From Methanothrix soehngenii GP6 (GTDB taxonomy: Archaea; Halobacteriota; Methanosarcinia; Methanotrichales; Methanotrichaceae), in NCBI RefSeq assembly GCF_000204415.1, contig NC_015416.1, positions 1,798,001 to 1,862,000 of the forward strand: a DNA stretch of 64,000 nucleotides, read 5' to 3'. Shown piece after piece: positions 5,425 through 64,000 of the stretch (position 1 is the first letter of the stretch; every line of letters begins with the position of its first letter). A program made the translations under genes and the position numbers. Below the pieces are notes generated by a model. It was not told the origin of the DNA and did not search any database. It saw only the letters and a list, made by a program, of their open reading frames with translations.

Positions 5425-5644
5425 TTCCAGTCTCCTTATGTCAGGCCGCTCGATCATGCCAGAGCAGACCATATCGGTCGATCAAAAGCAGCCTTTTTCT
5501 ATCACAATGATACTTATCAGCATATTTTACTATTTAATCATAACTATCAAAAGAAAAATATTACTAAAATTGGCCCGCATTGATAAAAATTTGGACAGGG
5601 CTTGTGCCCTGTCGACTCTTTCTTCTCAGGCTTTGGCAGCCCCT

Positions 5645-7003: not shown

Positions 7004-7061
7004 TTATAGCATCTCCTTTCTTTTGGTAGTTGTCGAATTCATCAATCTCAGCTGAAAAATG

Positions 7062-8354: not shown

Positions 8355-8516
8355 CTTTCCTCTGCCCCGCCCTCCATCCTGCAGCCGAAGCGATCCATCC
8401 GGCAAGCAGGAGAAGATAGCGGTCGCATGTAGGCATATCAATCAAACCTGTATTAGAATTTAATCATAATCAAAATAAGAAAATTGTTACTGCACAGGAT
8501 GAGGACTCAGGCAGAT

Positions 8517-20180: not shown

Positions 20181-21491
20181 ATGGAGCCGAACCGCTTAAT
20201 TTGGATTTTGATCTATGCTCTCGTGATATTATCTCCTACTAATGCTGCTGATTTCGTCCTGGAGATCTATGGCAATGCCAATATGGATGAGCATCTGGAC
20301 CAGGCCGACCTGGACTATATCAGGGATATCGCAGCGGGCAAAACCGAGCCCACCAAGCTTGCCGATGCAAACTATGACGGCGATGTTGATGAAGAGGATA
20401 TAGAGCAGGTCCAAGCCATACTGGATGGCAGAGAGACTCGGATCACCTATATAGACATCCTGGGTGAGGCAGAGACGTTGAATAAGCCCATAAAGCGCCT
20501 GGTGAATATGGGTTACAATGGGGTGGAGATGACCAGAATCCTGGGTGCAGAAGACCTCCTTGTAGCCTATGGTGCAGATAGATCGGCGCATAAGACATAT
20601 CTTCCAGAACTATCCGACCTTCCTTCAGTCTCTCCAGACGAAGGAGCCCAAGCCGAAAATGCTGACTTTGAGAGGATAATTATGCTGAAGACCGATGCTC
20701 TCCAGACCAATATAGAGAGAGGATCTTCTTCAACCGCGGGCCGGGCACAGAAGGATATATTCAAGAAAAACCTCCCCGATGTACCTCTGATCTCTCTCAA
20801 TATGCGTGAGCTTGATGTTCTGGTGAAGAACGTCCGCACCTACGGTTACCTTATAGATCATGAGAAAGAGGCAGAGCAGTTCATAAAATGGTATACTGAA
20901 TACTACAACCTGTTTGAAAGCCGGACCAAAGACATTCCTGAGGAAGAGAGGCCAACGGCGTTCTTCGAGTACGCATCCGAGCCCTATAATTGTTATGCTT
21001 CAGGCAGCAATCTGGGCCAGGTTCTGGTCTTAGCCGGGGGGAAAAACATCATCGATGGGGCAGTGGGTCCAGATGATCCTCAGTACAAAGGCATGATCGC
21101 TGCGGATCCAGAGTTCATCGTCAAAGAAAACCCCAAATATATTTTTGAGGCAGTGGCAAGCTGGGGCGATGGCGGATATGAGACAGATGATCTCTCCAAG
21201 ATGACCGCCTCAAGAGATCAAGTCCTAAATCGAAGTGAGCTGGTTAATGTCGATGCGGTAAAGGAGAATCAGGTATACTGTCTGGACTACTTCCTGCTCA
21301 TCGGCGCGGGGAACAACATCATAGGCACTGCATACCTGGCCAAGCTCTTTTACCCCGATCTATTCGAGGATATAGATCCCGTGGCCATACATCAGGAATA
21401 TGTGGACCGTTTCTGCCGCATAGACTTCAATGTCGAAGAAAAGGGTGCATTCCTCTATCCTCCGTATGATCGCTGGCCGGTGGAGGCCTGA
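20181..21491 (+). CDS. Dockerin-repeat / BtuF-FepB-like substrate-binding protein 4
   Basis: A 436-residue secreted protein: signal peptide MEPNRLIWILIYALVILSPT, then two dockerin repeats (GNANMDEHLDQADLDYI, slightly degenerate at the Gly; LADANYDGDVDEEDIEQ) and a PF01497-type domain with KPIKRLVNMGYNGVEMTRIL, FIVKENPKYIFE and the tail HQEYVDRFCRIDFNVEEKG. It resembles the IS-split gene at 30062-32645 (shared YIDI/FIDI-GEAET linker). Its neighbours are two methyltransferases and an MFS transporter on the same strand, an arrangement that hints at uptake and modification of one small molecule. Confidence 0.87.
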   Translation: MEPNRLIWILIYALVILSPTNAADFVLEIYGNANMDEHLDQADLDYIRDIAAGKTEPTKLADANYDGDVDEEDIEQVQAILDGRETRITYIDILGEAETLNKPIKRLVNMGYNGVEMTRILGAEDLLVAYGADRSAHKTYLPELSDLPSVSPDEGAQAENADFERIIMLKTDALQTNIERGSSSTAGRAQKDIFKKNLPDVPLISLNMRELDVLVKNVRTYGYLIDHEKEAEQFIKWYTEYYNLFESRTKDIPEEERPTAFFEYASEPYNCYASGSNLGQVLVLAGGKNIIDGAVGPDDPQYKGMIAADPEFIVKENPKYIFEAVASWGDGGYETDDLSKMTASRDQVLNRSELVNVDAVKENQVYCLDYFLLIGAGNNIIGTAYLAKLFYPDLFEDIDPVAIHQEYVDRFCRIDFNVEEKGAFLYPPYDRWPVEA

Positions 21492-31812: not shown

Positions 31813-31962
31813 CGGAGGCTATGAAAGTGCACGAGAGAATAGAGAAAAAGCAAGGCAAAATGCAGAAAAAGAGGCTACATAATGGATGAATTGACCTAAA
31901 AACAACCATAAAGATTGAAAATATTAACGCAGGAATTTAAAGCTCTTCTAATTGGTGCTAAA
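31813..31962 (+). other. 3' non-coding part of the IS5 element
   Basis: Sequence between the transposase stop and the right inverted repeat of the element; no gene or structured feature is seen. Confidence 0.5.
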
Positions 31963-32796
31963 TCGAAACCCTCAAAGATATATCCATAGATCAGGACAGT
32001 TGCAGATGTATGCTCCGGCTCGCGCGCATTAAGACAGATCAATGGAATTCCAGGAAGATTCCTGTGGAACTCCTCTTTCATCTTTCTGCCTGCATCATTT
32101 GCATAGTTCAAAAATTCCAGATTCGTCTGAACGGCATCTGGCGAAAGGGAGAGAACATGCTCAAAGTCAACATCGGGCGGAGTATTCCCTACCGAATGCC
32201 ATTGGCTTATCTCTCCCCAAAATACTGGATAATTGGAATAATCAGGTCCAACCACAGGCAGCATCCTATCCTCCGCGCCGATGAGACGCAATAGCTGGGG
32301 ACCAATATAGCCCAGTGCAGCCACGTGGTTTATGGGCTTATTGACCGTCTCCGCATCTCCGAATATATCGATGAAGGTGAGGCTGCTCTCTGTGCCATTG
32401 ATTATCCTCTCGATCTGAGCGATATCCTCTTCATCGACCTCCTGATCATAATTAGCATCTGCAAGCTCTGTTGTCTCTGCCGATCCCTTCATTATATCCT
32501 TCACATATGCAATGTCCTCTTCATCGATGATGTCATCCAGATTGGCATTGCCAAAGACATCCAGCCGCACATCAAGGGCATCCGCCGGGGACACGGCGAA
32601 GAATAAGATACACAATGAGATCATCATACATCCTTTATCAATCATAATAAACACTCCAACCGATTGCAATCAAATAATATTTATGGCTATATTTGCAATA
32701 CTTAGCAATCCATAAGCAATCCAGGTAAAATGAGTGAGGCGTACAAGCTCATCTCGATCGCCATTGCCATCACCCCATGCCGGATATTAATCATTT

Positions 32797-34758: not shown

Positions 34759-36019
34759 CTAACTCATCGGAGGATAAACGAATGCCCCATGCTCCTTTAG
34801 ATCATAGTCCACGTTCTGGAACCGATCGATATATTCCTGATGCACCTGTTCTGGATCGAGGTCCCCGAATAGGTCGGGATAAAGCCACTTGGCAAAGTAC
34901 AGGACGCCAATATGATCTCCTGCTCCCAGGGTGTTTATGAAATAGGTCACATAGATTCTGCCATTCTTTCCTGCATTGGTCTCGCCGAATCCAGCTGTTC
35001 CCATGATCTCATCATAGCGCTCCTTCAGAACGGATTCATCATCGACCTCATAGCCACCATTCCAGGACAGTCCAATGATCGCATCCGGATTCTGTTCCAG
35101 CACCCATTCGGTCTCCACTGGGGGCAGGGTGTTCTTTGAGGAGATGCCAGCATCCACCCGGAGGCTATCGGCCAGGTCCGCAGCAATGTTTATTCCCCCG
35201 GCAAGCTCTATCGCCTCAGAGTAGCCGCTTCCCCGGACGACTGTGGTATTACCCGGCCGGTCAACGAAGACCTTCACCCTCTCGCCCTCTGGAATAGTAG
35301 CTACCCTCTCAGCAACCATATCCAGATATCCATCCTTCCATTCCTGATACTCCAATGCTCTATCCACCTCATCCAGCATACAGGCGAGGGTGAAAAGAGA
35401 TGGCGTCCCTTTGCTCCAGGTCTCCAGATAGACCACATCTATGTCCGACCCCCTGAGTTTCTCCTCAAGATAAGGGCAGCCGGTCTTTGTGCCGATGATT
35501 ATTGCATCCGGTTGGAGCTTCAGGATTGCCTCCACATCGCAATCGTTTCTGTTGCCGATGGAAGCGGTCTGGATGAACTGGGGGAAGTAGGTGGGATACT
35601 TTCCAAGGGTACCGGAGCTTCCCTCTGAATCCACCCCGACTACCCGCTCTTCTGCACCCAGGATGCCGAATGATCTCTGCCGTAATGGCGTATACCAGAA
35701 TGATCCTCTCTAAGGGATGCTTGACCCGGCTGGCATTGCCAAAGGCATCGATATAATAAATTTCGGATTCAGTCCCCTGGATGATCTTCTTGATCTGATC
35801 CAGATCTTCTTCATCGACCTTTCCATCCTGGTTGGCATCAGAGAGAGCGGTCTCTTTATTCTTGCCGTCTAGGATGCCCTGCACATAATTTCTGTCCTCC
35901 TCATCTATCAGCTCATCCCCATTTGCATTGCCGAAGATATCCAGGGTGAACTCATGGGCGGATGCGGATAGGATCAGCAATAATCCTAATGAGATCAATG
36001 CGTAGATTGCTTTATTCAC
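34759..36019 (-). pseudogene. Dockerin/SBP gene 6, frameshifted
   Basis: The N-terminal frame (36019 leftward) encodes signal peptide MNKAIYALISLGLLLILSAS, dockerin repeats GNANGDELIDEEDRNYV and LSDANQDGKVDEEDLDQ, and the linker up to VYAITAEIIRH. One extra base at about 35663-35668 moves the rest (ILGAEERVVGVDSEGSSG onward) into another frame, which runs to 34759 and ends in the family tail HQEYIDRFQNVDYDLKEHG. Apart from this single base the gene is intact, so it may be a sequencing error. If real, the product stops after the dockerin part plus a nonsense tail. Confidence 0.8.
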
Positions 36020-37300: not shown

Positions 37301-38566
37301 CTATGGATATACAAAGATCCCCTGATATTCTAGCCCCTGGAACCTCTCCAGATATTCTTTGTGTATGGCCTCTGGATCCAAATCCAGGAACTTCTCCGGA
37401 TAAAACCACTTGGCCAGATATGAAAGGCCCACAAACCACCTTGGCCGGCTGGTGATCTCTGTGGTCATGAGATGCACCCGCTCGTCCTTTGCTGCATCCA
37501 CCCGTGATAGCTCAGGAGCCTGGACGATCTTCGTCCATAGCTCTCTCATGGCACTGTCATTGGCCAGGCTGTAGCCTCCAGGAGAGCTCCAGGTGAAGAT
37601 TATCTGGGGATTCTCTCCTACCACCCATTCCGGGTCCACAGTGGGATACATCCCGCCTGTTCCTCCGGTCAGATCATGGGCGATATTCTCGCCCCCGGCA
37701 AGGCCGCAGAGCATATCCACGATGGAGCCGTTGGATCCCGTCTTCCACAGATCGGCCGAAGTATAGTATATGGGATAGACCCGGGGCCTTTCACTCTCAG
37801 CGATCGATGATAACCGTTCCTCGATGAGGTCTGAGTATTTTCCCGCGAAACTGTTCAGCTCTCGGGCATCATCTTTCCGGTCCAGGATATAGCCCAGGGC
37901 CATGATCTCCGACGAAGAGTAGTCGGGATAGGTAAAGCCCATGCGAACCACTGTAATGCCTGTGCCTTCTAATTTGTCTTCCAGCTTCTCTGGATCCGGT
38001 GTCCTCAAATCAGCAATCACGATATCGGGATTGAGGCTGATGATGGCCTCGATATCCGGCTCGCTCCATTTTCCCACCGTGGGAAGGTCGATCATCTCTG
38101 GGAAGAAATCCCTGTTCGCTCCCTCCACCAGGGATGAGCCGACGCCCACGATCTTATCCTGCGCCTTTATGCCTCGAACCGACTCTGCACAGGCCAGGTT
38201 GAGAACCACAATCCTCTCCACCGGCATGGGAATGGTGACATTCATCAATTCTTCGTATATGGTGTAGGCCTTGAGGGTGAGCTGCTCTCCAGTCCCATCA
38301 ATCAGCCTCTCTACCTGCTCGATATCCTTCCCATCCACAATACCATCGAGATTGGCATCAGATAGCTCCGTTGCTGGGCTCCTGCCGGCTATCACGTCCT
38401 CCAGATAAGCGATATCAGACTCATTGATGGCATCATCCATATTGGCGTTGCCAAATATATTCAGGGTATAGCTGAAAGCCAGCGAAGAAGAGCATATTGC
38501 GCATGAGCTGGCACATAACGCTATCAGCAGCATTACAAACTCAGATGATCTTTTCATTTTCATCAA
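37301..38566 (-). CDS. Dockerin-repeat / BtuF-FepB-like substrate-binding protein 7
   Basis: A 421-residue secreted protein: signal peptide (SSEFVMLLIALCASSCAICS), dockerin repeats GNANMDDAINESDIAYL and LSDANLDGIVDGKDIEQ, then a binding domain with VPMPVERIVVL-like start, KAQDKIVGVGSSLVEGANRD, ISLNPDIVIADLRTPD and PTVDPEWVVGENPQIIFT. It ends with the shortened tail HKEYLERFQGLEYQGIFVYP. It starts 9 bp after the stop of the dockerin-less paralogue at 38576, so the two are one operon and may bind related ligands. Confidence 0.87.
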   Translation of the reverse strand: MMKMKRSSEFVMLLIALCASSCAICSSSLAFSYTLNIFGNANMDDAINESDIAYLEDVIAGRSPATELSDANLDGIVDGKDIEQVERLIDGTGEQLTLKAYTIYEELMNVTIPMPVERIVVLNLACAESVRGIKAQDKIVGVGSSLVEGANRDFFPEMIDLPTVGKWSEPDIEAIISLNPDIVIADLRTPDPEKLEDKLEGTGITVVRMGFTYPDYSSSEIMALGYILDRKDDARELNSFAGKYSDLIEERLSSIAESERPRVYPIYYTSADLWKTGSNGSIVDMLCGLAGGENIAHDLTGGTGGMYPTVDPEWVVGENPQIIFTWSSPGGYSLANDSAMRELWTKIVQAPELSRVDAAKDERVHLMTTEITSRPRWFVGLSYLAKWFYPEKFLDLDPEAIHKEYLERFQGLEYQGIFVYP

Positions 38567-44485: not shown

Positions 44486-45739
44486 GTGAACAAAGAGTCT
44501 TCTATCCAACTCCTTATCCGCAAAATAAAATCATCCATCGCATCTACAAAGTTCAGCGAGGACCCGTTAATATTAGGGCTGGCCATATTACTAATGTTAT
44601 TACTACTGCTGTATACCTTTGGGACCTTTGCGCCTCAGGAGGAGATGTGGCATAGATCCTATGGCGGTGCTGGCTCGGATGTTGGAAACTCTGTATTAGA
44701 GGTAAAAGATGGCGGATATATCATTGCAGGCACTACTAGCTCTTATGGTGCTGGAAAAGATGATGCCTGGCTAGTAGAGGCGGATCAAAATGGCAATGAG
44801 AAGTGGAACAGGACTTTTGGCGGTTCTGATGACGATTCTGGCGTATCAGTAATGCAGATTAATGACGGCAGCTATATCTTTGCCGGCGCGACAAGCTCCT
44901 TTGGCGCAGGAGATTTTGATGCCTGGCTAATAAAGACCAACTCTGATGGAAAAGAGCGCTGGAACAAAACCTATGGAGGGGCCAGCTACGATTGGGGTTA
45001 CTCGGTTCAGGAGATAAAAGATGGTGGCTATATCATCGCTGGTGAGACGAGATCCTATGGAGTCGGTGGAAGCGATGCCTGGCTGATAAAGACTGATTCC
45101 ACTGGCAACGAACTATGGAATAGAACCTTCGGAGGGCCGAAAGACGACGGTAGCCATGCGATACGAAGGACCAAGGATGACGGCTATGTTATTGCAGGTT
45201 TCACAGAGTCTTATGGTGCAGGCGGCAAAGATGTCTGGCTGATAAAGACGGATTCAGCTGGCAATGAGCTTTGGAATATAACTTTCGGGGGATCGAGGGA
45301 CGACCGCGGAGAATCAGTCCAGCAGGTAAAAGATGGTGGCTACATCATCGCAGGAGGCGCAAATGCTCCTCTGGCTAATAAATCTCTCATGGGCGATGCC
45401 TGGCTGATAAGGACTGACTCCAATGGCACTATGCAGTGGGGCAGGATTTTCAGCTTTGGGGATTCGGACTATAATATTGGCACCGCAGCTCAAGAGACAA
45501 CGGATGGCGGCTATATCCTTGCAGGTTACGGTTTAGGTGCTGGGATATACTCATGGCTGATAAAAAACGATAACGTAGGTATGAAGCAATGGGATGAAGT
45601 CTTCGATGAGTCGGGCAGAAATGAGGGCTTATCAGTTCAGCAAGCTGGAGATGGCAGCTACATCAGTACGGGCTGGACGATCTCTTCCGGCAGTGTCGAT
45701 GCCTGGCTGATGAAAATGGCGGAGAGAATACAGTCTTAA
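44486..45739 (+). CDS. Membrane-anchored seven-repeat beta-propeller protein
   Basis: A 417-residue protein with one N-terminal membrane segment (ILGLAILLMLLLLLYTFGTF, about residues 29-48), then seven repeats of about 50 residues. Each repeat has the pattern W-x-[RK]-[ST]-[FY]-G-G ... DGGYIIAG-x-T-x-SYGAG ... DAWLIKTD. Repeat starts are near residues 54, 105, 155, 205, 255, 310 and 360. Seven such units fit a seven-bladed propeller on the cell surface. Paralogues with a cleavable signal peptide are encoded at 54868, 57596, 60250 and 63221. Start is GTG. Function is unknown. Confidence 0.78.
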   Translation: MNKESSIQLLIRKIKSSIASTKFSEDPLILGLAILLMLLLLLYTFGTFAPQEEMWHRSYGGAGSDVGNSVLEVKDGGYIIAGTTSSYGAGKDDAWLVEADQNGNEKWNRTFGGSDDDSGVSVMQINDGSYIFAGATSSFGAGDFDAWLIKTNSDGKERWNKTYGGASYDWGYSVQEIKDGGYIIAGETRSYGVGGSDAWLIKTDSTGNELWNRTFGGPKDDGSHAIRRTKDDGYVIAGFTESYGAGGKDVWLIKTDSAGNELWNITFGGSRDDRGESVQQVKDGGYIIAGGANAPLANKSLMGDAWLIRTDSNGTMQWGRIFSFGDSDYNIGTAAQETTDGGYILAGYGLGAGIYSWLIKNDNVGMKQWDEVFDESGRNEGLSVQQAGDGSYISTGWTISSGSVDAWLMKMAERIQS

Positions 45740-47304: not shown

Positions 47305-47640
47305 ATCAATTTTTCGGGTTTTTCATGCGAAACGGCAGCGACGCACCCCGCTGCAAGCAGACGTGGCATCCGAGGCGTCGCCGCATAAAGATAGTACTAC
47401 TCGGATCTGATTCAATCCCAAGTTGGACACGGATGCCCTTTATCCCCGATGCAAGCATCGGGGTATTCCTATAAAAATAATGGTACATTCGGAAGGAGTT
47501 ATGTCATTCGCTTATCGATTTGCATAGTAATAATATACAATGAGAACAATGGTAAAAACGTCTCTGATATATGCGTTAAAGCTAGAATCCCTATCGATGG
47601 AGGGTTAGAACGAAAATAGCCTTATTTAAGCCTTTGCTTT
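47305..47640. other. Right end of IS110 and cassette-A upstream region
   Basis: The first part belongs to the IS110 right end; the border is not visible. A perfect hairpin CCCCGATG-CAAG-CATCGGGG occupies 47444-47463. From about 47550 the sequence matches the intergenic regions of the later cassettes (ATCCCTATCGATGG and TTATTTAAGCC), including the leftward TATA box, but its leftward gene is missing. Confidence 0.5.
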
Positions 47641-47797
47641 TTGTTCGGATTTTCCGAACAAAATGAATACTTGTGTATTTAAATGTTCTCTTTTTGTTCG
47701 GAAAATCCGAACAATTTCAATAGATTTATCTGGTTATGAGTAATATCAGTGGTTGTGCTTCCAAAGAAGCACTTTAAAAAGAATACGAGGTGAAAAA
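47641..47797 (+). promoter_or_regulatory. Cassette A control region: twin palindromes and leader hairpin
   Basis: Two perfect palindromes: TTGTTCGGA-TTT-TCCGAACAA (47641-47661) and TTGTTCGGA-AAA-TCCGAACAA (47694-47714), centres 53 bp apart. A TATA-like TAGATTTATCTGG follows the second. In the leader, GTGCTTC-CAAA-GAAGCAC (47755-47772) is a perfect hairpin. GAGGTG precedes the ATG at 47798. Four further copies control the other cassettes. Confidence 0.8.
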
Positions 47798-48223
47798 ATG
47801 AGAAAGCTTGGAATAAACATGTTTGGAGAGGAAACGAACTTCGGAGATAGGCTGGAAAAGACGTGCCCAATAGGGGAAAACATTCCAAAATTTATGCCAA
47901 GAACGGCGCCTCTAATGGGCGAAGTAGCACCTGTATCTGCCGCACCTTTCGCAGGAAGAACCTATGGAATAGGTCCTAGAGCACCCATGACAACAGCAAG
48001 ACCTACAGGAATTAGCCCAATGAGGACGACGCAGATATGCGAAGATTATCTTTCCACTGCACAGTACTATTTAGACATGTATTACTCAACAGGAAATCAG
48101 TATTACCTGTGTCAGCACTATCTTTGGATGGCACGATATGAATATTGTATGTGGGACTACACTGGGATACAGCAATACTATGACGCCTACTTATGGTATA
48201 TGAACCAGTATTGGAACTGCTAA
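47798..48223 (+). CDS. Tyr/Trp/Cys-rich protein under the cassette operator
   Basis: A 141-residue protein without signal peptide. The first 90 residues are a Pro/Ala/Thr/Met-rich, leader-like part (starting MRKLGINMFGEETNFGDRLE); the last 61 hold 16 Tyr, 4 Trp and 4 Cys in three units that each begin QYY (QYYLDMYYSTGN; QYYLCQHYLWMARYEYC; QYYDAYLWYMNQYWNC). The start is the ATG at 47798 behind GAGGTG; the longer frame starts inside the leader hairpin. No family is recognised. Because it shares its operator with the PatG-like/peptide pairs it should be made under the same conditions. It could be a structural surface protein or a precursor for aromatic or Cys crosslinks. Confidence 0.65.
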   Translation: MRKLGINMFGEETNFGDRLEKTCPIGENIPKFMPRTAPLMGEVAPVSAAPFAGRTYGIGPRAPMTTARPTGISPMRTTQICEDYLSTAQYYLDMYYSTGNQYYLCQHYLWMARYEYCMWDYTGIQQYYDAYLWYMNQYWNC

Positions 48224-50982: not shown

Positions 50983-51177
50983 ATGGCACAATGTTGTGGT
51001 TGCTATATTGGAGTAGAAAATCCAATTGGACATACAATATGTACTACGCGGTCCAAATATGCATGGGATTGCGGTACTGCGTGTTCTCTGGCGGCACAAT
51101 ACAGGTATATAGATTGCCCATATAGCGGCTATGCACGGAATCACACATTCAGTGCACCGCCATCGTACTGTCCTTGA
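50983..51177 (+). CDS. Eight-cysteine peptide, cassette B
   Basis: A 64-residue peptide starting MAQCCGCYIG and ending APPSYCP, with a strong AAAGGAGGTGA ribosome-binding site. It has exactly eight Cys (4, 5, 7, 20, 30, 34, 45, 63), many aromatic residues and no signal peptide. The block ACSLAAQYRYIDC keeps the 11-residue Cys spacing seen in the cassette C and E peptides. No family is recognised. It may be a substrate or partner of the PatG-like protein upstream; a metal-binding peptide is an alternative. Confidence 0.7.
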   Translation: MAQCCGCYIGVENPIGHTICTTRSKYAWDCGTACSLAAQYRYIDCPYSGYARNHTFSAPPSYCP

Positions 51178-54867: not shown

Positions 54868-55992
54868 TTAAATTAGCTTTATTAGCTCTTCAAAACCTCC
54901 AATAATATATCCACCATCCTTTGTTCTATAGATAGACGCGCCTAGGGACCCCGCGAAAGTTCGGTTCCATTGTTCATTTCCTGAGCCGTCTGTCTTTATG
55001 AGCCAAGTCTTCGATCGGCTAGGGATTGGGGCATCGGAATGCGTGGAACCTGTGACGAGATAACCTCCGTCTTCAACAGTTGCTACAGAGAATCCATCAT
55101 CCCATTCCGATCCGCCAAATGTTCTATTCCATTCTTCATTTCCATCGGAATCGGTTTTTATCAACCATAAGTCGAAGTCACCAGCACCATAAGATTTTGT
55201 TTTGCCTGCTATTATATATCCTCCATCGTCCGCTTGTTGGACTGATCTGCCTTCATCAATATCCGCCCCTCCGAAAGTTCTGTTCCATTGCTCAAAGCCT
55301 TTTGAATCGACTTTAATCAGCCAGACGTCACTTTCACCACCTCCATAGGATCTGGTAGAACCAACAATCACATATCCACCATCTTTTGAACTTTGAACCA
55401 TGGAAAACGCAGCGTCAAGATTTATACCGCCAAAAGTCTTGTTCCACATCTCATTGCCATTCAAATCAGTCTTTATCAGCCAGAAATCGCCTCTACCAGC
55501 ACCGAACGAGTATGTCGTGCCGGCTACAATGTATCCCCCGTCTTCTGTCTGCTGGGCTGTGTTGCCCCAATCAAAGTCAGGTCCTCCAAAAGTTTTATCC
55601 CATACTTTATTCCCTTCGGAGTCAGTCTTTATCAGCCAAAGATCGAAATCCCCAGAGCCATGTGATCTTGTAGAACCCACAATAAAATAACCATCGCCTA
55701 CATTCATAACAGAACGGCCAATATCATCTCCTGTCCCGCCATAAGTGCGATTCCATTCTTCAAAACCTTTGGAATCGGTTTTTGTTAGCCAGACATCATT
55801 CTGGCCCATGCCAAATGAGTCCGTCCAGCCTGCAATGATATACCCGCCATCTTCGGCCTCTATGACTGAGTTTCCAACATCCGATCCAGAACCGCCGAAC
55901 GTTTTGTTCCATTCCTCTTCAGGCTGAGCTGAAGCGCCTAAAGTATCAAGCATCAGCAATGCCAACCATAATATTACTACTTTTTTGATCAA
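54868..55992 (-). CDS. Secreted seven-repeat beta-propeller protein (cassette C, leftward gene)
   Basis: A 374-residue protein beginning at TTG 55992 with signal peptide MIKKVVILWLALLMLDTLGA. Seven repeats of about 50 residues follow, starting with EEWNKTFGG, EEWNRTYGG, KVWDKTFGG, EMWNKTFGG, EQWNRTFGG, EEWNRTFGG and EQWNRTFAG. Each carries DGGYIIAG-type and DLWLIKTDS-type strands. The last repeat is shortened (GGYIIGGFEELIKLI). The first 140 residues are almost identical to those of the cassette D protein, after which the two diverge abruptly. It lies divergent to the PatG-like gene of cassette C. Probable cell-surface protein; ligand unknown. Confidence 0.8.
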   Translation of the reverse strand: MIKKVVILWLALLMLDTLGASAQPEEEWNKTFGGSGSDVGNSVIEAEDGGYIIAGWTDSFGMGQNDVWLTKTDSKGFEEWNRTYGGTGDDIGRSVMNVGDGYFIVGSTRSHGSGDFDLWLIKTDSEGNKVWDKTFGGPDFDWGNTAQQTEDGGYIVAGTTYSFGAGRGDFWLIKTDLNGNEMWNKTFGGINLDAAFSMVQSSKDGGYVIVGSTRSYGGGESDVWLIKVDSKGFEQWNRTFGGADIDEGRSVQQADDGGYIIAGKTKSYGAGDFDLWLIKTDSDGNEEWNRTFGGSEWDDGFSVATVEDGGYLVTGSTHSDAPIPSRSKTWLIKTDGSGNEQWNRTFAGSLGASIYRTKDGGYIIGGFEELIKLI

Positions 55993-56328
55993 CTACCCAC
56001 TCTCCTCGTACTGCTCTATGTAAGCTTTTAATGACATTATGTAATTTAAACTTTACTATTAATAAACGCACAGTAATTGCGGAAAGTTTACGGCATACTC
56101 ATTAAAGCTAAAATCCCTATTGATGGAAGGTTAGAAAGGAGATAGCTCTATTTAAACCTTTTCTTTTTGTTCGGATTTTCCGAACAAATTGAGATATTAT
56201 GTATTTAGATATTTGCTTCTTGTTCGGGAAACCCGGACAAATTCAATAGATTTATCTAGTTATGAGTAGTATCAGTGGTTGTGCTTCTAAAAGGGCACAG
56301 TTGAGCGAGTAAAGAGTGGGGAATTGAT
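55993..56328. promoter_or_regulatory. Cassette C divergent control region
   Basis: Palindrome 1 at 56167-56187 (TTGTTCGGA-TTT-TCCGAACAA) next to the leftward TATA box (complement of CTATTTAAACC); palindrome 2 at 56220-56240 (TTGTTCGGG-AAA-CCCGGACAA) next to the rightward TAGATTTATCTAG. Centres are 53 bp apart. The whole region is nearly identical to those of cassettes D and E. Confidence 0.82.
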
Positions 56329-57249
56329 ATGGAAGAAAAAGAAGCAAAGGATAATCCAGCAAGCTTGCCTATGAACCAGGCACCTTGCCAGGAGAGCCAG
56401 GAAAACAAAGCCTCCTCTCAGGAGGTTGGAAAGCGTAGCTGTGGATGCGGAGAAGGTGCGAAATCCAAAGCGACTCAATATGTTTATTCTCTGGGACGCA
56501 TCGAGCCACGCTTCCCGAACATGTCTGCTGAGCGGGAGTTTGCTCAGGCTATGGGAAGAGCAGAGACCGCAGGAATGATAGATCCACAAGCATTCTACTT
56601 TGTTCTGTCAAAGAAGGAGAACCGGTACCTTGTACGTGAGCTATGCTGGGTTCTGACCATCGAAAGTGTGGCAGCTTGCATTCTGCTGCCGAAAGATCCT
56701 CTGGATTTGGATCTGCTAGTAGAATCCGTACGGCCCATGTCCGCTAAAGCGGATATAGATGTAGTAATCGGCCTAATGGGACCAGTTGCTCCGCCTGAAA
56801 TGTGCAGCGGGCTGCAAGTCCCGTTGGTCGGATTCGATCAGCTCTTCTCATTCGACAGAAATGCCTTCATCAAATCTATTCCGAGGCCTGAGTCGATTCC
56901 CGAGAAGCAGGAGGAGAAGTTCAGAGCTACAGCCAATGAGCTGTTCGACAGGATCCTGCAAATGGCGGACAATACTGGAGCCAATGACGAGCATAGGGCG
57001 CTGAATTACCTGGCGGTTCGATATCCTGCAATCTATGCCAAGGCGGCAGAGGAGTTCGAGCACAACTTCTCCCTGACAGGCGTAGAAGTCAGGCCATCAA
57101 GGCTAAGCGGTGCGCGAAAAATTGTCTCTGTGATCTTCTCCTACACTAACAGAGAGACCGATGTCACGGAAAAATTCTTCGTCCGCGTGGATGTGAGCGA
57201 GGAGTTTCCATTCATGGTCACCAAGATGGCGCCATACTACGATAGGTGA
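56329..57249 (+). CDS. Standalone PatG C-terminal-like protein, cassette C
   Basis: A 306-residue paralogue of the cassette B protein. It differs most in the N-terminal part (KSKATQYVYSLGRIEPRFPN, shared with cassette E) and in the middle (PLDLDLLVESVRPMSAK), while the last 120 residues (from PRPESIPEKQEEK to YYDR) are nearly the same in all copies. The KRSCGCGE motif is kept. The following eight-Cys peptide starts 25 bp downstream. The patchwork of shared and private segments indicates recombination among copies. Confidence 0.75.
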   Translation: MEEKEAKDNPASLPMNQAPCQESQENKASSQEVGKRSCGCGEGAKSKATQYVYSLGRIEPRFPNMSAEREFAQAMGRAETAGMIDPQAFYFVLSKKENRYLVRELCWVLTIESVAACILLPKDPLDLDLLVESVRPMSAKADIDVVIGLMGPVAPPEMCSGLQVPLVGFDQLFSFDRNAFIKSIPRPESIPEKQEEKFRATANELFDRILQMADNTGANDEHRALNYLAVRYPAIYAKAAEEFEHNFSLTGVEVRPSRLSGARKIVSVIFSYTNRETDVTEKFFVRVDVSEEFPFMVTKMAPYYDR

Positions 57250-57274
57250 ATAAACTAAATGGAGGTGAAATGAA

Positions 57275-57490
57275 ATGGCACAATGTTGGGGATGTTATCA
57301 AACAGTTGAGTATCCTCTTGGTAATGTACTGTGTACTACGCCAACGTGTTTTGTATGGGATAATTGGCCTGCTGCATGCTCCAATGCCGCCTCGTTCAGA
57401 TGGACGACTTGCGGCTGGGCAAGCGGATACGCAGTCTCTCATCATTTCCCTGCATCTCCGTCGTACTGTAACCCGGAACGGTGTATTTAA
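57275..57490 (+). CDS. Eight-cysteine peptide, cassette C
   Basis: A 71-residue peptide starting MAQCWGCYQT and ending SPSYCNPERCI, behind a GGAGGTGA ribosome-binding site. Eight Cys at 4, 7, 20, 25, 35, 46, 65 and 70. It shares with the cassette B peptide the MAQC start, Cys20, the ACSNAASFRWTTC block and the GY-x-x-x-H region, but is otherwise quite different. It has no signal peptide and is rich in Trp, Tyr and Phe. A 135-codon frame overlapping it on the same strand is a shadow. Confidence 0.7.
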   Translation: MAQCWGCYQTVEYPLGNVLCTTPTCFVWDNWPAACSNAASFRWTTCGWASGYAVSHHFPASPSYCNPERCI

Positions 57491-57595
57491 GAGCATACAT
57501 CATTTTGGGTTCATAATATTTTTTTATTGCATTTCCCTAAAGTATATGACCTCCATTAAAGCAGAAAGGTTCTATCGTGCTTTTGCATATCTCTG

Positions 57596-58741
57596 TCATT
57601 TTAGTCTTATTAGTATCGTATCCCAAGTTATCCGTTTGTCTTCGCCTAAATAATTTACAGCACCCAAGATAACATATCCTCCATCTTTTACCTGCCTGAT
57701 GGAGCTAGCTATTGGAATCGAGAGCGAAGGAGACATTGCAAGCCTCTTATCCCATGTTTTATCGCCGCTTGAATCAGTCTTCACCAACCAGATATAAGAA
57801 GAGGTAGAACCTGCAATCATATAGCCATCGTTTGTTTCTATGATAGAAGTGCCCTCATCCCATTCAGGCCCACCAAAAACCTTATCCCATAATTTGTTTC
57901 CATTTGAATCGACTTTCATCAGCCAGAGGTCAGGTTTTCCTGTGCCGTAATAATCAGTTCTTCCAACAAGGATAAATCCTCCGTCCCTCGTTTGCTTAAT
58001 TGAGTTACATATATCGGATCCCGGACTTCCAAGAGTTCTATTCCATAACTCATCCCCATTTGAGTCGGTCTTTACTATCCAGATATCAATATTTCCGGAT
58101 CCATATGAGTTAGTTTGTCCAGCGGTTACGTATTCTCCATCCGTCTCCTGGAGCGCTATAATAGTCTCATAACCTGTATCTCCGAGGGTCCTATTCCATT
58201 TTTCTTGTCCGTTTGAGTCTATTTTTATCAACCAGTCATCGACATCTTCATCACTCTGATGTTTTGATCCGCCAATAATATAATCGCCATCTTTTGTCCC
58301 GATAATTGCATTACCTAAATCATCGCCAGGTCCTCCAAAAGTTTTATCCCATACTTTATTCCCTTCGGAGTCAGTCTTTATCAGCCAAAGATCGAAATCC
58401 TCAGAGCCATGTGATCTTGTAGAACCCACAATAAAATAACCATCGCCTACATTCATAACAGAACGGCCAATATCATCTCCTGTCCCGCCATAAGTGCGAT
58501 TCCATTCTTCAAAACCTTTGGAATCGGTTTTTGTTAGCCAGACATCATTCTGGCCCATGCCAAATGAGTCCGTCCAGCCTGCAATGATATACCCGCCATC
58601 TTCGGCCTCTATGACTGAGTTTCCAACATCCGATCCAGAACCGCCGAAAGTTTTGTTCCATTCCTCTTCAGGCTGAGCTGAAGCGCCTAAAGTATCAAGC
58701 ATCAGCAATGCCAACCATAATATTACTACTTTTTTGATCAA
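57596..58741 (-). CDS. Secreted seven-repeat beta-propeller protein (cassette D, leftward gene)
   Basis: A 381-residue protein beginning at TTG 58741, with the same signal peptide as cassette C. Seven repeats begin EEWNKTFGG, EEWNRTYGG, KVWDKTFGG, EKWNRTLGD, ELWNRTLGS, KLWDKVFGG and KTWDKRLAM. Up to about residue 140 it matches cassette C at the DNA level with very few differences, then becomes unrelated in detail while keeping the repeat frame. Its stop overlaps no gene; about 105 bp separate it from the cassette C peptide. Surface location is likely; function unknown. Confidence 0.8.
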   Translation of the reverse strand: MIKKVVILWLALLMLDTLGASAQPEEEWNKTFGGSGSDVGNSVIEAEDGGYIIAGWTDSFGMGQNDVWLTKTDSKGFEEWNRTYGGTGDDIGRSVMNVGDGYFIVGSTRSHGSEDFDLWLIKTDSEGNKVWDKTFGGPGDDLGNAIIGTKDGDYIIGGSKHQSDEDVDDWLIKIDSNGQEKWNRTLGDTGYETIIALQETDGEYVTAGQTNSYGSGNIDIWIVKTDSNGDELWNRTLGSPGSDICNSIKQTRDGGFILVGRTDYYGTGKPDLWLMKVDSNGNKLWDKVFGGPEWDEGTSIIETNDGYMIAGSTSSYIWLVKTDSSGDKTWDKRLAMSPSLSIPIASSIRQVKDGGYVILGAVNYLGEDKRITWDTILIRLK

Positions 58742-59076
58742 CTACCCACTCTCCTCGTACTGCTCTATGTAAGCTTCTAATGACATTATGTAATTTAAAC
58801 TTTACTATTAATAAACGCACGGTAATTGCGGAAAGTCTACGGCATACTCATTAAAGCTAAAATCCCTATTGATGGAAGGTTAGAAAGGAGATAGCTCTAT
58901 TTAAACCTTTTCTTTTTGTTCGGATTTTCCGAACAAATTGAGATATTATGTATTTAGATATTTGCTTCTTGTTCGGGAAACCCGGACAAATTCAATAGAT
59001 TTATCTAGTTATGAGTAGTATCAGTGGTTGTGCTTCCAAAAGGCACAGTTGAGCGAGCAAAGAGTGGGGAATTGAT
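58742..59076. promoter_or_regulatory. Cassette D divergent control region
   Basis: Palindromes at 58916-58936 (TTGTTCGGA-TTT-TCCGAACAA) and 58969-58989 (TTGTTCGGG-AAA-CCCGGACAA), centres 53 bp apart, each beside one of the divergent TATA boxes. A leader hairpin with GTGC/GCAC arms is at 59030-59046. Confidence 0.82.
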
Positions 59077-60009
59077 ATGGAAGAAAAAGAAGCAAAAGAT
59101 AAGCTGGCAAGCCTGCCTATGAACCAGGCACCTTGCCAGGAGAGCCAGGAAAACAAAGCCTCCTCCTCTCAAGGAATGGCAAAGCGTAGCTGTGGATGCG
59201 GAGAAGATGCGAAAGCCAAGGGCACAAATGCGCCCCAATACGTCTACGCCCTTGGAAAGATCGACCCTCGCTTTCGAAGCATGGCCGTGGAAAGAGAGTT
59301 TGCACAGGCTACTGGCAGGGCGGAGACAACCGGGCTTACGGATCAACAGGCCTTCTACTCGGTTCTGTCAAAGAAGGAAAATAGGTATCTGGTACGTGAT
59401 CTGTGTTGGACTCTAACCATAGAAGGTGTGGCCGCCTATATCCTGCTGCCCAAGGACCCATTGGATTTTGATCGTCTGGTGGAATCCGTCAAGCCTCAAC
59501 AGGATAAAGCGGGCATGGATGTCGTGGTCGGATTAAAGGGGCCGGTTGCTCCGCCTGAAATGTGCAGCGGGCTGCAAGTCCCGTTGGTCGGATTCGATCA
59601 GCTCTTCTCATTCAATAGAGATGCCTTCATCAAATCTATTCCGAGGCCTGAGTCGATTCCCGAGAAGCAGGAGGAGAAGTTCAGAACTGCAGCCAATGAG
59701 CTGTTCGACAGGATCCTGCAGATGGCGGACAATACTGGAGCCACTGACGAGCACAGGGCGCTGAATTACCTGGCGGTTCGATATCCAGCAATCTATGCCA
59801 AGGCGGCAGAGGAGTTCGAGCACAACTTCTCCCTGACAGGGGTAGAAGCCAGGCCATCAAGGCTAAGCGGTGCGCGAAAAATTGTCTCTGTGATCTTCTC
59901 CTACACTAACAGGGAAACCGATGTCACTGAGAAGTACTTTGTCCGCGTGGATGTGAGCGAAGAGTTTCCATTCCTGGTCACCAAGACGGCGCCATACTAC
60001 GACAGGTGA
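59077..60009 (+). CDS. Standalone PatG C-terminal-like protein, cassette D
   Basis: A 310-residue paralogue. Its N-terminal half follows cassette B (KGTNAPQYVYALGKIDPRFR; LDFDRLVESVKPQQDK), whereas a central stretch (VGLKGPVAPPEMCSGLQVPL) follows cassette C, and the ending (EKYFVRVDVSEEFPFLVTK) follows cassette E. This mosaic makes it a good witness of gene conversion. One extra Ser in the low-complexity N-terminus. The downstream peptide starts after 27 bp. Confidence 0.75.
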   Translation: MEEKEAKDKLASLPMNQAPCQESQENKASSSQGMAKRSCGCGEDAKAKGTNAPQYVYALGKIDPRFRSMAVEREFAQATGRAETTGLTDQQAFYSVLSKKENRYLVRDLCWTLTIEGVAAYILLPKDPLDFDRLVESVKPQQDKAGMDVVVGLKGPVAPPEMCSGLQVPLVGFDQLFSFNRDAFIKSIPRPESIPEKQEEKFRTAANELFDRILQMADNTGATDEHRALNYLAVRYPAIYAKAAEEFEHNFSLTGVEARPSRLSGARKIVSVIFSYTNRETDVTEKYFVRVDVSEEFPFLVTKTAPYYDR

Positions 60010-60036
60010 ATAAACTAAATGGAGGTGAAAAAATAA

Positions 60037-60228
60037 ATGACGGCATGCAAATGCTTCTGGTATACAAGTCGTCGTACCGGCGGTTGTGAAGGACGACATA
60101 TATGCAGCTGCGATTGGGGCTGGGCAGATTCCGAAGCTCTGTCATGGTTTTGGACTATCTGTGGCTACGTACAAGGGTACCAGCATATACAAGATAAACC
60201 ATGGGTTGATTGTGCAGCCTGCTATTAG
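60037..60228 (+). CDS. Eight-cysteine peptide, cassette D
   Basis: A 63-residue peptide starting MTACKCFWYT and ending VDCAACY, behind GGAGGTGA. Eight Cys at 4, 6, 17, 23, 25, 42, 59 and 62. It keeps the region ADSEALSWFWTIC (with Asp in place of the usual Cys) and GYQH, which aligns with AYQH in cassette E. Trp content is high (6 residues). No signal peptide. Its stop lies 21 bp from the stop of the convergent propeller gene. Confidence 0.7.
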   Translation: MTACKCFWYTSRRTGGCEGRHICSCDWGWADSEALSWFWTICGYVQGYQHIQDKPWVDCAACY

Positions 60229-60249
60229 CCGTGAGAGTATTCTACACTC

Positions 60250-61425
60250 TCATTTTTTTAAATTACTCAATTTCATTTTTACCATAAATATATCGAAGCC
60301 GCCTGAGCCATACGAATCTGTGTCACCTAGCATAATATATTCATCATCGTCTGCCTCTTGGGCTAGAAAGGCCCCCGACGTGCCTGTACTACCAAAAGTC
60401 CTGTTCCATTGCTCTATACCATTTTGGTCTGTCTTTATTACCCAGGCATCGCTTCCACCGGTACCATAGGACCTTGTCTCACCAGCGATGATATATCCAC
60501 CATCTCTGGCCTGCTGAACTGACATGCCCCAATCAACATCCGAACCGCCGAAGGTTTTGTTCCATTCTTCATTACCCTTTGAATCGGTTTTTATTAACCA
60601 AATATCCTGATCATTAGCATCCTTTTGTCGTGTATCACCGATAACAATGTATCCACCATCTTTAGTTTCTTGAATTGACCGCGCACCATCCCATGACGAC
60701 CCACCAATTGTTTTATTCCATAGCTCTGTGCCAGATGGGTCTGTTTTTATGATCCAGACATAAGCTTTATCAATATCTTTTAGTTCAGTCCAACCTGCGA
60801 TTACATATCCGCCATCTTTCGTTTGCTTGACTGATCTACCAGCATCATTGCCTGATTTACCGAAAGTCCTATCCCACATTTTAGTCCCATTTGAGTCTGT
60901 TTTTATTAGCCAGATATCAAAATCACCTGCATTATATGATTTTGTATCGCCTAAGAGAATATATCCATGATCACTTGTTTCTTGAATTGACCAACATATG
61001 TCATCGCTAGGTTTACCAAAGGTTCTATCCCATTCTTTATCCCCTTTAGAGTTCGCCTTTATTAGCCAAATATCTTTGCCGCCAGCGCCGTAGGACTCTG
61101 TAAGGCCTGCGATTATATATCCACTATCGCTTGTTTCTTGGATTGAATAGCCAATATCATCTCTCGGTCCGCCAAAGGTCCTGTTCCAAAGTTCATTTCC
61201 TTTTGAGTCAGTCTTTATCAGCCAAATATCATCTTTTCCTGTTCCAAAAGAATCCGTCTTACCTACGATGATATATCCATAATCTTTTATCTCCTGAATG
61301 GCGAAGCCTGACTCATCACCTGGCCCACCGTACGTTTTGTTCCATTCCTCTTTAGGCTGAGCTGAAGCGCCTAAAGTATCAAGCATCAGCAATGCCAACC
61401 ATAATATTACTACTTTTTTGATCAA
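60250..61425 (-). CDS. Secreted seven-repeat beta-propeller protein (cassette E, leftward gene)
   Basis: A 391-residue protein from TTG 61425. The signal peptide is identical to those of cassettes C and D, but from the mature residue KEEWNKTYGG on the sequence is its own. Repeats start EEWNKTYGG, ELWNRTFGG, KEWDRTFGK, KMWDRTFGK, ELWNKTIGG, EEWNKTFGG and EQWNRTFGS, i.e. seven. The typical strands are DYGYIIVGKTDSFGTGKDD and DIWLIKTDS. Divergent to the PatG-like gene of cassette E and convergent with the cassette D peptide gene. Surface location likely; ligand unknown. Confidence 0.8.
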   Translation of the reverse strand: MIKKVVILWLALLMLDTLGASAQPKEEWNKTYGGPGDESGFAIQEIKDYGYIIVGKTDSFGTGKDDIWLIKTDSKGNELWNRTFGGPRDDIGYSIQETSDSGYIIAGLTESYGAGGKDIWLIKANSKGDKEWDRTFGKPSDDICWSIQETSDHGYILLGDTKSYNAGDFDIWLIKTDSNGTKMWDRTFGKSGNDAGRSVKQTKDGGYVIAGWTELKDIDKAYVWIIKTDPSGTELWNKTIGGSSWDGARSIQETKDGGYIVIGDTRQKDANDQDIWLIKTDSKGNEEWNKTFGGSDVDWGMSVQQARDGGYIIAGETRSYGTGGSDAWVIKTDQNGIEQWNRTFGSTGTSGAFLAQEADDDEYIMLGDTDSYGSGGFDIFMVKMKLSNLKK

Positions 61426-61760
61426 CTACCCACTCTCCTCGTACTGCTCTATGTAAGCTTCTAATGACATTATGTAATTTAAACTTTACTATTAATAAAC
61501 GCACAGTAATTGCGGAAAGTCTACGGCATACTCATTAAAGCTAAAATCCCTATTGATGGAAGGTTAGAAAGGAGATTGCTCTATTTAAACCTTTTCTTTT
61601 TGTTCGGATTTTCCGAACAAATTGAGATATTATGTATTTAGATATTTGCTTCTTGTTCGGGAAAGCCGGACAAATTCAATAGATTTATCTAGTTATGAGT
61701 AGTATCAGTGGTTGTGCTTCCAAAAGGCACAGTTGAGCGAGTAAAGAGTGGGGAATTGAT
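61426..61760. promoter_or_regulatory. Cassette E divergent control region
   Basis: Palindromes at 61600-61620 (TTGTTCGGA-TTT-TCCGAACAA) and 61653-61673 (TTGTTCGG-GAAAG-CCGGACAA, one mismatch), centres 53 bp apart. TATA boxes and leader hairpin are as in cassettes B-D. Confidence 0.82.
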
Positions 61761-62681
61761 ATGGAAGAAAAAGAAGCAAAAGATAAGCTGGCAGGCCTGC
61801 CTGTGAACCAGACACCTTGCCAGGAGAGCCAGGAAAACAAAGCCACCTCTCAGGAGGTTGGAAAGCGTAGCTGTGGATGCGGAGAAGGTGCGAAATCCAA
61901 AGCGACTCAATATGTTTATTCTCTGGGACGCATCGAGCCGCACTTCCCGAACATGTCTGCTGAGCGGGAGTTTGCTCAGGCTATGGGAAGAGCAGAGACC
62001 GCAGGAATGACAGATTCACAAGCATTCTACTCTGTTCTGTCAAAAAAGGAAAACCGGTATCTGGTACGTGATCTGTGTTGGACGCTGGCCATAGAGGGCA
62101 TGGCCACCTATATCCTGTTGCCGAAGGATCCATTGGATTTTGATCGTCTGGTGGAATCCGTTAAGCCTCAACAGGATAAAGCGGACATAGATGTCGTGGT
62201 CGGCTCAAAGGGACCAGTTGCTCTTCCTGAAATGTGCAGCGGGCTGCAAGTCCCGTTGGTCGGATTCGATCAGCTCTTCTCATTCGACAGAGATGCCTTC
62301 ATCAAATCTATTCCGAGGCCTGAGTCGATTCCCGAAAAGCAGGAGGGGAAGTTCAGAGCTGCCGCCAATGAGCTGTTCGACAGGATCCTGCAAATGGCGG
62401 ACAATACTGGAGCCAATGACGAGCACAGGGCGCTGAATTACCTGGCCGTTCGATATCCTGCAATCTATGCCAAGGCGGCAGAGGAGTTCGAGCACAACTT
62501 CTCCCTGACAGGGGTAGAAGCCAGGCCATCAAGGCTAAGCGGTGCGCGAAAAATTGTCTCTGTGATCTTCTCCTACACTAACAGGGAAACCGATGTCACT
62601 GAGAAGTACTTTGTCCGCGTGGATGTGAGCGAAGAGTTTCCATTCCTGGTCACCAAGATGGCGTCGTACTACGACAGGTGA
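61761..62681 (+). CDS. Standalone PatG C-terminal-like protein, cassette E
   Basis: A 306-residue paralogue. The N-terminal part follows cassette C (KSKATQYVYSLGRIEPHFPN), the middle follows cassette B (PLDFDRLVESVKPQQDK, VVGSKGPVALPEMC), and the end follows cassette D (EKYFVRVDVSEEFPFLVTK). KRSCGCGE is present. It ends MASYYDR where the others have MAPYYDR or TAPYYDR. The downstream peptide starts after 25 bp. Confidence 0.75.
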   Translation: MEEKEAKDKLAGLPVNQTPCQESQENKATSQEVGKRSCGCGEGAKSKATQYVYSLGRIEPHFPNMSAEREFAQAMGRAETAGMTDSQAFYSVLSKKENRYLVRDLCWTLAIEGMATYILLPKDPLDFDRLVESVKPQQDKADIDVVVGSKGPVALPEMCSGLQVPLVGFDQLFSFDRDAFIKSIPRPESIPEKQEGKFRAAANELFDRILQMADNTGANDEHRALNYLAVRYPAIYAKAAEEFEHNFSLTGVEARPSRLSGARKIVSVIFSYTNRETDVTEKYFVRVDVSEEFPFLVTKMASYYDR

Positions 62682-62706
62682 ACAATTTGAAATGAGGTGA
62701 AAAGAA

Positions 62707-62886
62707 ATGACATGTTATTGCTGCTATTGGACTAGCACACCATCCGACGGTTGTGTAGGACCTACTTACTGCAGCTTCTACGTGGGTTCAGCATGCTCTG
62801 CAGCTCTTTCGGCGTTCAGAGCACAATGTGGTTCCTCTGTACCAGCGTACCAGCATACGTATATAGCTCCTGACTACTACTGCTAG
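62707..62886 (+). CDS. Eight-cysteine peptide, cassette E (59 residues)
   Basis: A short frame from ATG 62707 to TAG 62884-62886, behind GAGGTGA. The product starts MTCYCCYWTS and ends APDYYC. Eight Cys at 3, 5, 6, 16, 22, 30, 41 and 59. The ACSAALSAFRAQC block keeps the 11-residue Cys spacing of the cassette B and C peptides, and YQHTYIAPDYYC parallels their endings. No signal peptide. Confidence 0.7.
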   Translation: MTCYCCYWTSTPSDGCVGPTYCSFYVGSACSAALSAFRAQCGSSVPAYQHTYIAPDYYC

Positions 62887-63220
62887 TAACTAAGTGTTCC
62901 TCAGAATAATATTTTCTATTTTTTTTAATTCTATAATTTACTGTAGTTTCCAAGTTTTTGATTTTGCATACGCAATGCAGTAGAGAGGTAAAGCAAATAT
63001 TATTAAATAGCATGATATTAGCACAAAAAGGATATCTATTACTGGTCAATTATGTGGGAATTGGATTCAGTTTATAAAGTTGGTGGTTGAAATGAAAAAC
63101 TTGGAAAGTACAGTAATTTATGCAGCAACAGGTGGTGAATAATAACATACCATCACGTCTCTCCATAATCAAGTAACTTGACAGATAATATAAAAATAGA
63201 GCTTTTAAGATAGTTACCTC
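62887..63220. other. Gap between cassette E peptide and next propeller gene
   Basis: About 330 bases without a gene, mostly taken by the MITE-like element; the rest is AT-rich and serves as convergent 3' flank. Confidence 0.45.
62940..63114. mobile_element. MITE-like element related to the IS701/IS4-like element
   Basis: A non-coding 175-bp segment whose ends, ACTGTAGTTTCCAAGTTTTT and the complement of ACTGTACTTTCCAAGTTTTT, are inverted copies of each other and resemble the ends of the element at 51244-54851. AATTT flanks both sides (62935-62939 and 63115-63119). It has no transposase and would need one supplied in trans. Confidence 0.6.
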
Positions 63221-64000
63221 TCAATTTACCCTTATCAGCCATGCATCTACGCTTTTGTTACCATATGAAGTAGTACTGCCTTCAATAATATATCCTCCAG
63301 CTTTGGTTTCTTGTATTGAGTAGGCACCATCAGTTCCCTTTCCGCCAAAGGTCGTATTCCATAGTTCGTTGCCATTAGAATCTGTTTTTATTAGCCAAGC
63401 ATTACCCGGGATACGTTTCTCAGGTCCTGAGGTAGTCACTAATAAGCCGTAAGATTCCGTTGAACCTGCGATAATATAGCCACTATCGTTAGTCTGCTGT
63501 ATTGAGAATCCCCAATCATAGCCAGATCCTCCATAGGTTTTATTCCATTGCTCTTTACCAGAGGGGTCGGTCTTTATTACCCAAACGTCCTGTGCGCCTG
63601 CACTAAAAGACTGCGTATCACCTACTAGAATATAGCCGCCATCTTTTGTTTCTCGGACTGCTCTGCAGCCATCCCAGGCTGAACCACCAAATGTCTTTTC
63701 CCATTGTGTGATTCCAGTAGAGTTAGTTTTTATCAGCCAAAAATTACTACTTCCATCAGGGCCATAAGACTCTGTGGGGCCTGTGATGATATATCCACCA
63801 TCGTTTGTCTTATCAACTGCCCAGCCTGCATCATAACCCGGTCCGCCAAAGGTTCTGTTCCATTGCTCTTTACCAGAGGGATCCGTCTTTATCAGCCAGG
63901 CATCTGAATCTCCAGCGCCAAAGGAGCGTGTTAAGCCAGCAATGATATAACCCCCATCATTTGCCTGTAGAACGGATCTACCCTCATCTATATCTCTTCC
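63221..64000 (-). CDS. Beta-propeller repeat protein, N-terminus beyond the window
   Basis: The frame is open from the right edge to the stop at 63221-63223; 259 C-terminal residues are visible. Five repeats are seen, starting with the incomplete GRDIDEGRSVLQANDGGYII, then EQWNRTFGG, TQWEKTFGG, EQWNKTYGG and ELWNTTFGG, each with the ...WLIKTD strand. One repeat has a loop insertion (LLVTTSGPEKRIPG). It ends DAWLIRVN. By position it would be the leftward gene of a sixth cassette whose operator should lie beyond 64000. Confidence 0.78.
   Translation of the reverse strand, partial: GRDIDEGRSVLQANDGGYIIAGLTRSFGAGDSDAWLIKTDPSGKEQWNRTFGGPGYDAGWAVDKTNDGGYIITGPTESYGPDGSSNFWLIKTNSTGITQWEKTFGGSAWDGCRAVRETKDGGYILVGDTQSFSAGAQDVWVIKTDPSGKEQWNKTYGGSGYDWGFSIQQTNDSGYIIAGSTESYGLLVTTSGPEKRIPGNAWLIKTDSNGNELWNTTFGGKGTDGAYSIQETKAGGYIIEGSTTSYGNKSVDAWLIRVN

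Follow-up and report, generated by a model that had tools for sequence, protein, structure and literature searches.

The window analysed here, i.e., the whole 64,000-nucleotide stretch of Methanothrix soehngenii GP6 DNA (positions 1,798,001–1,862,000 of a 3.01-Mb contig in a genome of two contigs and 3,026,645 bases), encodes at 47798–48223 on the forward strand a 141-residue protein that is unusually rich in Tyr. The open reading frame is present as predicted earlier from the DNA, with an ATG start and a Shine–Dalgarno sequence, and it is preceded by a promoter block that recurs before four genes for PatG_D/PatG_C proteins. The features of the locus and of these four cassettes are as follows:

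47569–47765, forward strand: upstream block, 86–87% identical to its counterparts at the four PatG genes of the window
47623–47629, forward strand: TATA-like box 1 (putative), TATTTAA, 11 nt ahead of palindrome 1
47641–47661, no strand assigned: palindrome 1, TTGTTCGGATTTTCCGAACAA, perfect
47676–47682, forward strand: TATA-like box 2 (putative), TATTTAA, 11 nt ahead of palindrome 2
47694–47714, no strand assigned: palindrome 2, TTGTTCGGAAAATCCGAACAA, perfect here and imperfect in the four PatG copies
47755–47772, forward strand: 5′-UTR hairpin, GTGCTTC-CAAA-GAAGCAC, present ahead of each of the five genes and also conserved in two other genomes
47787–47793, forward strand: Shine–Dalgarno sequence GAGGTGA of the Tyr-rich gene, of the type seen in the Cys-rich peptide genes
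47798–48223, forward strand: coding sequence of the Tyr/Trp-rich orphan protein, 141 residues, ATG start, homologue searches negative
47798–48010, forward strand: N-terminal tail, residues 1–71, rich in Pro, Ala, Thr and Gly, predicted disordered (pLDDT about 30–39 for residues 1–70)
48017–48220, forward strand: C-terminal domain, residues 74–141, with a 24-residue repeat and three predicted helices
50028–50957, forward strand: PatG_D/PatG_C gene, same promoter; Cys-rich peptide gene downstream at 50983–51177
56329–57249, forward strand: PatG_D/PatG_C gene, same promoter; peptide gene downstream at 57275–57490
59077–60009, forward strand: PatG_D/PatG_C gene, same promoter; peptide gene downstream at 60037–60228
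61761–62681, forward strand: PatG_D/PatG_C gene, same promoter; peptide gene downstream at 62707–62886, its product ending in YYC

The Tyr-rich cassette consists of a single gene and, as had been noted, contains no PatG-like gene; the nearest one starts 1.8 kb downstream, past a convergent gene for a β-helix (NosD-like) secreted protein. On the other side, an IS110 gene ends 265 bp ahead of the shared block, and many IS elements lie nearby. The Shine–Dalgarno sequence is strong and of the GAGGTGAAAA type, like those of the Cys-peptide genes, whereas the PatG starts differ. Codon usage of the reading frame is not separable from that of neutral sequence (p = 0.12). Residues 81–141 (61 residues) comprise 16 Tyr, 4 Trp and 4 Cys, and QYY occurs at residues 89, 101 and 126, in agreement with the counts given in the original prediction; the last residue is Cys, and the likeness drawn there to another cassette also holds, the last PatG-linked peptide of the window (62707–62886) ending in ...YYC. 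With 16 Tyr in 60 residues, the protein exceeds all other ORFs examined, the next best of which has 9.

Both palindromes match TTGTTCGGANNNTCCGAACAA exactly over 21 bp, which confirms the perfect twin operator that had been proposed. Each operator half is a 53-bp unit of TATTTAA, 11 nt and the 21-bp palindrome, and the two halves belong to a direct duplication, 47 bp long, at 53-bp spacing. The window holds 10 TTGTTCGGANNNTCCGAACAA sites with at most three mismatches (0.05 expected), and exact sites in the genome are confined to the Tyr-rich gene and the four PatG genes, whose own copies carry three changes in palindrome 2. The shared block (190–197 bp) extends to the start codon region. Archaeal transcription starts about 25 bp past the TATA box; each palindrome should therefore cover a start site, a position that fits binding sites for a presumed repressor. 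Small, mutually similar winged-helix regulators are encoded near both PatG clusters of the genome (L050:2588–2869, just past the window end, and L043:2109–2477), and these are candidates for the palindrome-binding factor. Rfam matches upstream of the gene were to miRNA-hairpin models, below the cut-off and triggered by the palindromes, and were rejected. Sigma-70 promoter and intrinsic terminator signals were absent, as expected in an archaeon.

Among 50 genomes of the order, the site was found in only two others (G033 and G035), both of another genus, and in both it lies immediately ahead of a PatG gene; no further TTGTTCGGANNNTCCGAACAA sites came from a sample of the phylum that comprised 393 genomes. 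The 5′-UTR, from the palindrome to the start codon, is likewise recognisable in these two genomes, including ATAGATTTAT and a hairpin of the form GTGCTY...RAGCAC. Palindrome 2 of the Tyr-rich gene is identical to that of G033 at 21 of 21 positions, whereas identity outside the palindromes is only 58%. The Tyr-rich gene has therefore not come recently and by chance under a copy of a PatG promoter: of an element common to two genera, its version is the better preserved. The gene thus has exact palindromes just past a TATA-like box, at the expected start, and a hairpin-bearing 5′-UTR in common with the PatG genes of the other genus. Because it keeps a perfect operator that is conserved beyond the genus, its membership of a conserved PatG regulon appears genuine and is well supported by these sequence comparisons. 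The earlier suggestion of shared regulation with a PatG-like system is strengthened by the retention of operator and 5′-UTR before the other-genus PatG genes. The hairpin at 47755–47772 is a possible post-transcriptional element. Viral contigs with the palindrome carry it as a single site each, which was taken as near chance given the size of the collection. By eye, a change in the hairpin stem in the two genomes of the other genus keeps the pairing.

In every complete archaeal case examined, a small Cys-rich peptide gene with a strong Shine–Dalgarno sequence lies within about 30 bp downstream of the stand-alone PatG_D/PatG_C gene. Bacterial plasmids encode relatives of the archaeal PatG protein, at an identity of 57–61% (Mesorhizobium, Sinorhizobium, a Streptomyces) or 42% (a second Streptomyces), and these adjoin small Cys-rich ORFs, many with an MPGFTAE-like leader, and in three of four cases an S8 peptidase gene. 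The occurrence of Cys-rich peptides beside both archaeal and plasmid PatG genes makes a RiPP-like biology of the cassettes likely, and the similarity of the methanogen and plasmid proteins suggests transfer between domains of life. Literature searches turned up no publication on the MPGFTAE precursors or on Methanothrix PatG.

Several further observations concern the wider setting. The protein encoded at 61761–62681 shares about 57–61% identity with the plasmid proteins at L082, L083 and L084. A second PatG locus in the same genome (L043, C1:2,980,001–3,000,000; L093/L094) has three PatG/Cys-peptide pairs and two radical-SAM/SPASM-looking genes with a 47-residue Cys-rich ORF ahead of them, together with ABC-transporter genes and fragments; several very long S8 peptidases are encoded around the contig ends. 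A recurrent arrangement is that a PatG/peptide cassette points towards a convergent gene for a secreted repeat protein (TFGG/SBBP-like propeller, TPR or β-helix; window 54868–63439 and 44486–45739; L043–L049), and the Tyr-rich gene, facing that of the NosD-like protein, has the same convergent layout as several PatG cassettes. Elsewhere in the window, periplasmic-binding-protein-like genes are repeated at 4069–8441, 20181–21491, 31896–32669, 35465–36019 and 37301–38566; their products carry an N-terminal dockerin-like double EF-hand (NANMDG..DE.D).

No relative of the Tyr-rich protein was found in 26 genomes of the genus or 50 of the order, in viral contigs, plasmids or phages, or in a GTDB contig scan that detects close relatives only, and none of its C-terminal part in 393 genomes of the phylum. 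Comparison with Pfam, NCBIfam, PHROGs, PADLOC and the PDB produced no convincing hit; as Pfam was negative, the protein is without PF18047 or PF18065 (PatG_D/PatG_C). The homologues that the original prediction proposed to look for are thus missing from every collection searched. Weak genome matches, part of which were inspected, reflected Pro-rich composition, stop-broken frames or pieces of known transporter or enzyme genes, and a GTDB match in Paractinoplanes (L022) and two viral matches cover the Pro-rich tail only.

A structure was predicted with AlphaFold2 from the single sequence. In the full-length model, helices are predicted at residues 74–98, 101–122 and 125–139. Describing the N-terminal part as leader-like, as had been done, is a matter of judgement; what is retained is that residues 1–71 are predicted to be disordered. 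Modelled alone, the domain reaches a mean pLDDT of 81, with five similar models (78–81), a shorter helix 2 and a less certain last third (pLDDT 64–71). QYY occurs at least three times in 0.3% of composition-preserving shuffles, and the triplets, spaced by 12 and 25 residues, are not exactly in register with the true repeat unit. This unit comprises 24 residues, the best self-alignment offset, and its whole-domain score was reached by none of 5000 composition-preserving shuffles (local segment p = 0.003); without gaps, ICEDYLSTAQYYLDMYYSTGNQYYLCQHYLWMARYEYC aligns with LCQHYLWMARYEYCMWDYTGIQQYYDAYLWYMNQYWNC. By the helix boundaries of the full-length model, Cys81/Cys117 and Cys105/Cys141 would lie opposite each other in the two hairpins (their positions add up to 198 and 246, against an expected 199 and 247), a pattern with a chance probability of p = 0.016, or 0.05 given the repeat. 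With 2 Lys/Arg and 6 Asp/Glu, the domain has a mildly acidic composition, and this speaks against a membrane-lytic peptide of the cationic kind. Foldseek/VIA matches were background-level helical bundles, and neither a known nor a new fold is claimed.

Since the Tyr-rich gene stands under the same conserved signal as the RiPP-like peptide genes, its product is probably made together with the peptide system and serves it as partner or cargo. As to its function, we rank a precursor-type cargo first, followed by an accessory binding protein, a captured young ORF and an envelope structural protein. The first, a role inferred from context and not from homology, is our tentative preference. In the scheme envisaged, a tandem promoter would drive the gene, each TATA box being followed by a 21-bp palindrome at the expected start, and a palindrome-bound repressor would silence it together with the four PatG/peptide operons. 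The protein would be made in quantity from the strong ribosome-binding site, its flexible tail of about 71 residues would be recognised by the PatG system, and the compact three-helix, Tyr-rich C-terminal part would remain as the product, with two Cys–Cys links between helices, 81–117 and 105–141, probably holding it together.

A cargo role agrees with the restriction of exact operators to five cassettes in the genome and, in the two other-genus genomes, of the operator to PatG genes, with the identity of palindrome 2 to that of G033 and the direct duplication of TATA box and palindrome, and with a Shine–Dalgarno sequence of the Cys-peptide-gene type. PatG genes are habitually paired with small Cys-rich proteins, which follow them in archaea and adjoin them on bacterial plasmids, and a small regulon member rich in Cys and aromatic residues therefore fits a cargo; the internal repeat, the three helices at a pLDDT of about 80 and the facing Cys point the same way. 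However, the protein is an orphan, so that conservation of its residues cannot be assessed, its codon usage is like that of neutral sequence, and its own cassette is missing a PatG gene, with processing enzymes not adjacent. Modified peptides rarely have a folded helical core, the facing-Cys pattern is only moderately improbable by chance, and the PatG domain did not bind linear peptide substrates in the single published test (PMC4259220). Of the suggestion that the protein is another substrate of the same system, co-regulation has held and a substrate role is plausible, but no homologue was found, and the protein has neither a leader in common with the archaeal or bacterial peptides linked to PatG nor a profile match to them. 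A bolder version is quite improbable, namely that a folded, Tyr/Trp-packed three-helix mini-protein with two Cys- or Tyr-derived inter-helix links is freed from a disordered leader and constitutes a new kind of PatG cargo under the same operator as the small Cys-rich archaeal peptides.

The absence of a processing enzyme from the cassette would be explained if the protein were not processed at all. The three-helix domain might then be a small TPR/MIT-like binding module, co-regulated with the PatG genes, whose task would be to escort or tether either the Cys-rich peptides or the PatG-like proteins. We consider this possible but doubtful: the prediction of a compact domain behind a disordered tail and the weak structural resemblance to MIT domains and α-SNAP-like helical hairpins are in its favour, but the structural matches (Z 6–9) are no better than helical bundles commonly give, and such a helper should also occur in other genomes with PatG genes, where relatives were not found.

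Orphan status in all searches and neutral-like codon usage would also be expected of a young ORF, or a neutral one, that took over the regulon promoter upon loss or rearrangement of a PatG/peptide module and is perhaps expressed without a selected function, and the many IS elements, with IS110 directly upstream, could be taken in the same sense. This is nevertheless unlikely, as the operators are perfectly kept though the surrounding promoter has diverged, the Shine–Dalgarno sequence is strong, and an ordered 24-residue repeat with a confident helix prediction is improbable in a random ORF. Tyr content is what recommends the last proposal, also made originally, of an envelope or sheath structural protein hardened by Tyr–Tyr or Tyr–Cys bonds, which found no specific support and is highly improbable: a Sec signal peptide or transmembrane helix is not evident in the sequence, the Tyr residues sit in predicted helices and not in exposed flexible repeats, oxidative Tyr cross-linking is unlikely because the host is a strict anaerobe, and the protein is absent from all other Methanothrix genomes searched, although other Methanothrix also build sheaths.

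Accessory domains of the PatG type are a conserved part of cyanobactin pathways but are without a known role (PMC4259220). In this methanogen, the stand-alone PatG-type copies have in common a conserved operator, which marks out the genes of their pathway, and a regulon member other than the PatG/peptide pair provides an independent handle on the product or the needs of the system. The operator can further be used as bait for the regulator and for additional regulon members.

The modelled domain resembles MIT and TPR-like hairpins in having three antiparallel helices within about 70 residues, but no profile of these families matches the protein and there is no sequence match. The genes that share the operator encode the C-terminal domains of cyanobactin PatA/PatG (PF18047, PF18065; structure 4UVQ); unlike cyanobactin PatG, however, the PatG copies of the window have no subtilisin domain. 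The Cys-rich, precursor-like proteins with the MPGFTAE leader (alignment A3), encoded beside bacterial and one archaeal S8 peptidase/PatG genes, share with the Tyr-rich protein a flexible N-terminus, a linker, a Cys/aromatic C-terminus and the PatG context, whereas the Tyr-rich protein has no MPGFTAE motif, its cassette no S8 peptidase, and no profile match links it to leader-bearing precursors after bacterial PatG genes. The Cys-rich peptides that follow archaeal PatG genes (MxxC..., 39–71 residues; alignment A4) differ from it in being half its size or less, in always following a PatG gene and in seeming to lack any leader, and a profile match with them is absent as well; they resemble it, however, in promoter/operator family, Shine–Dalgarno type and richness in Cys and aromatic residues, and some of them end in aromatic-aromatic-(x)-Cys.
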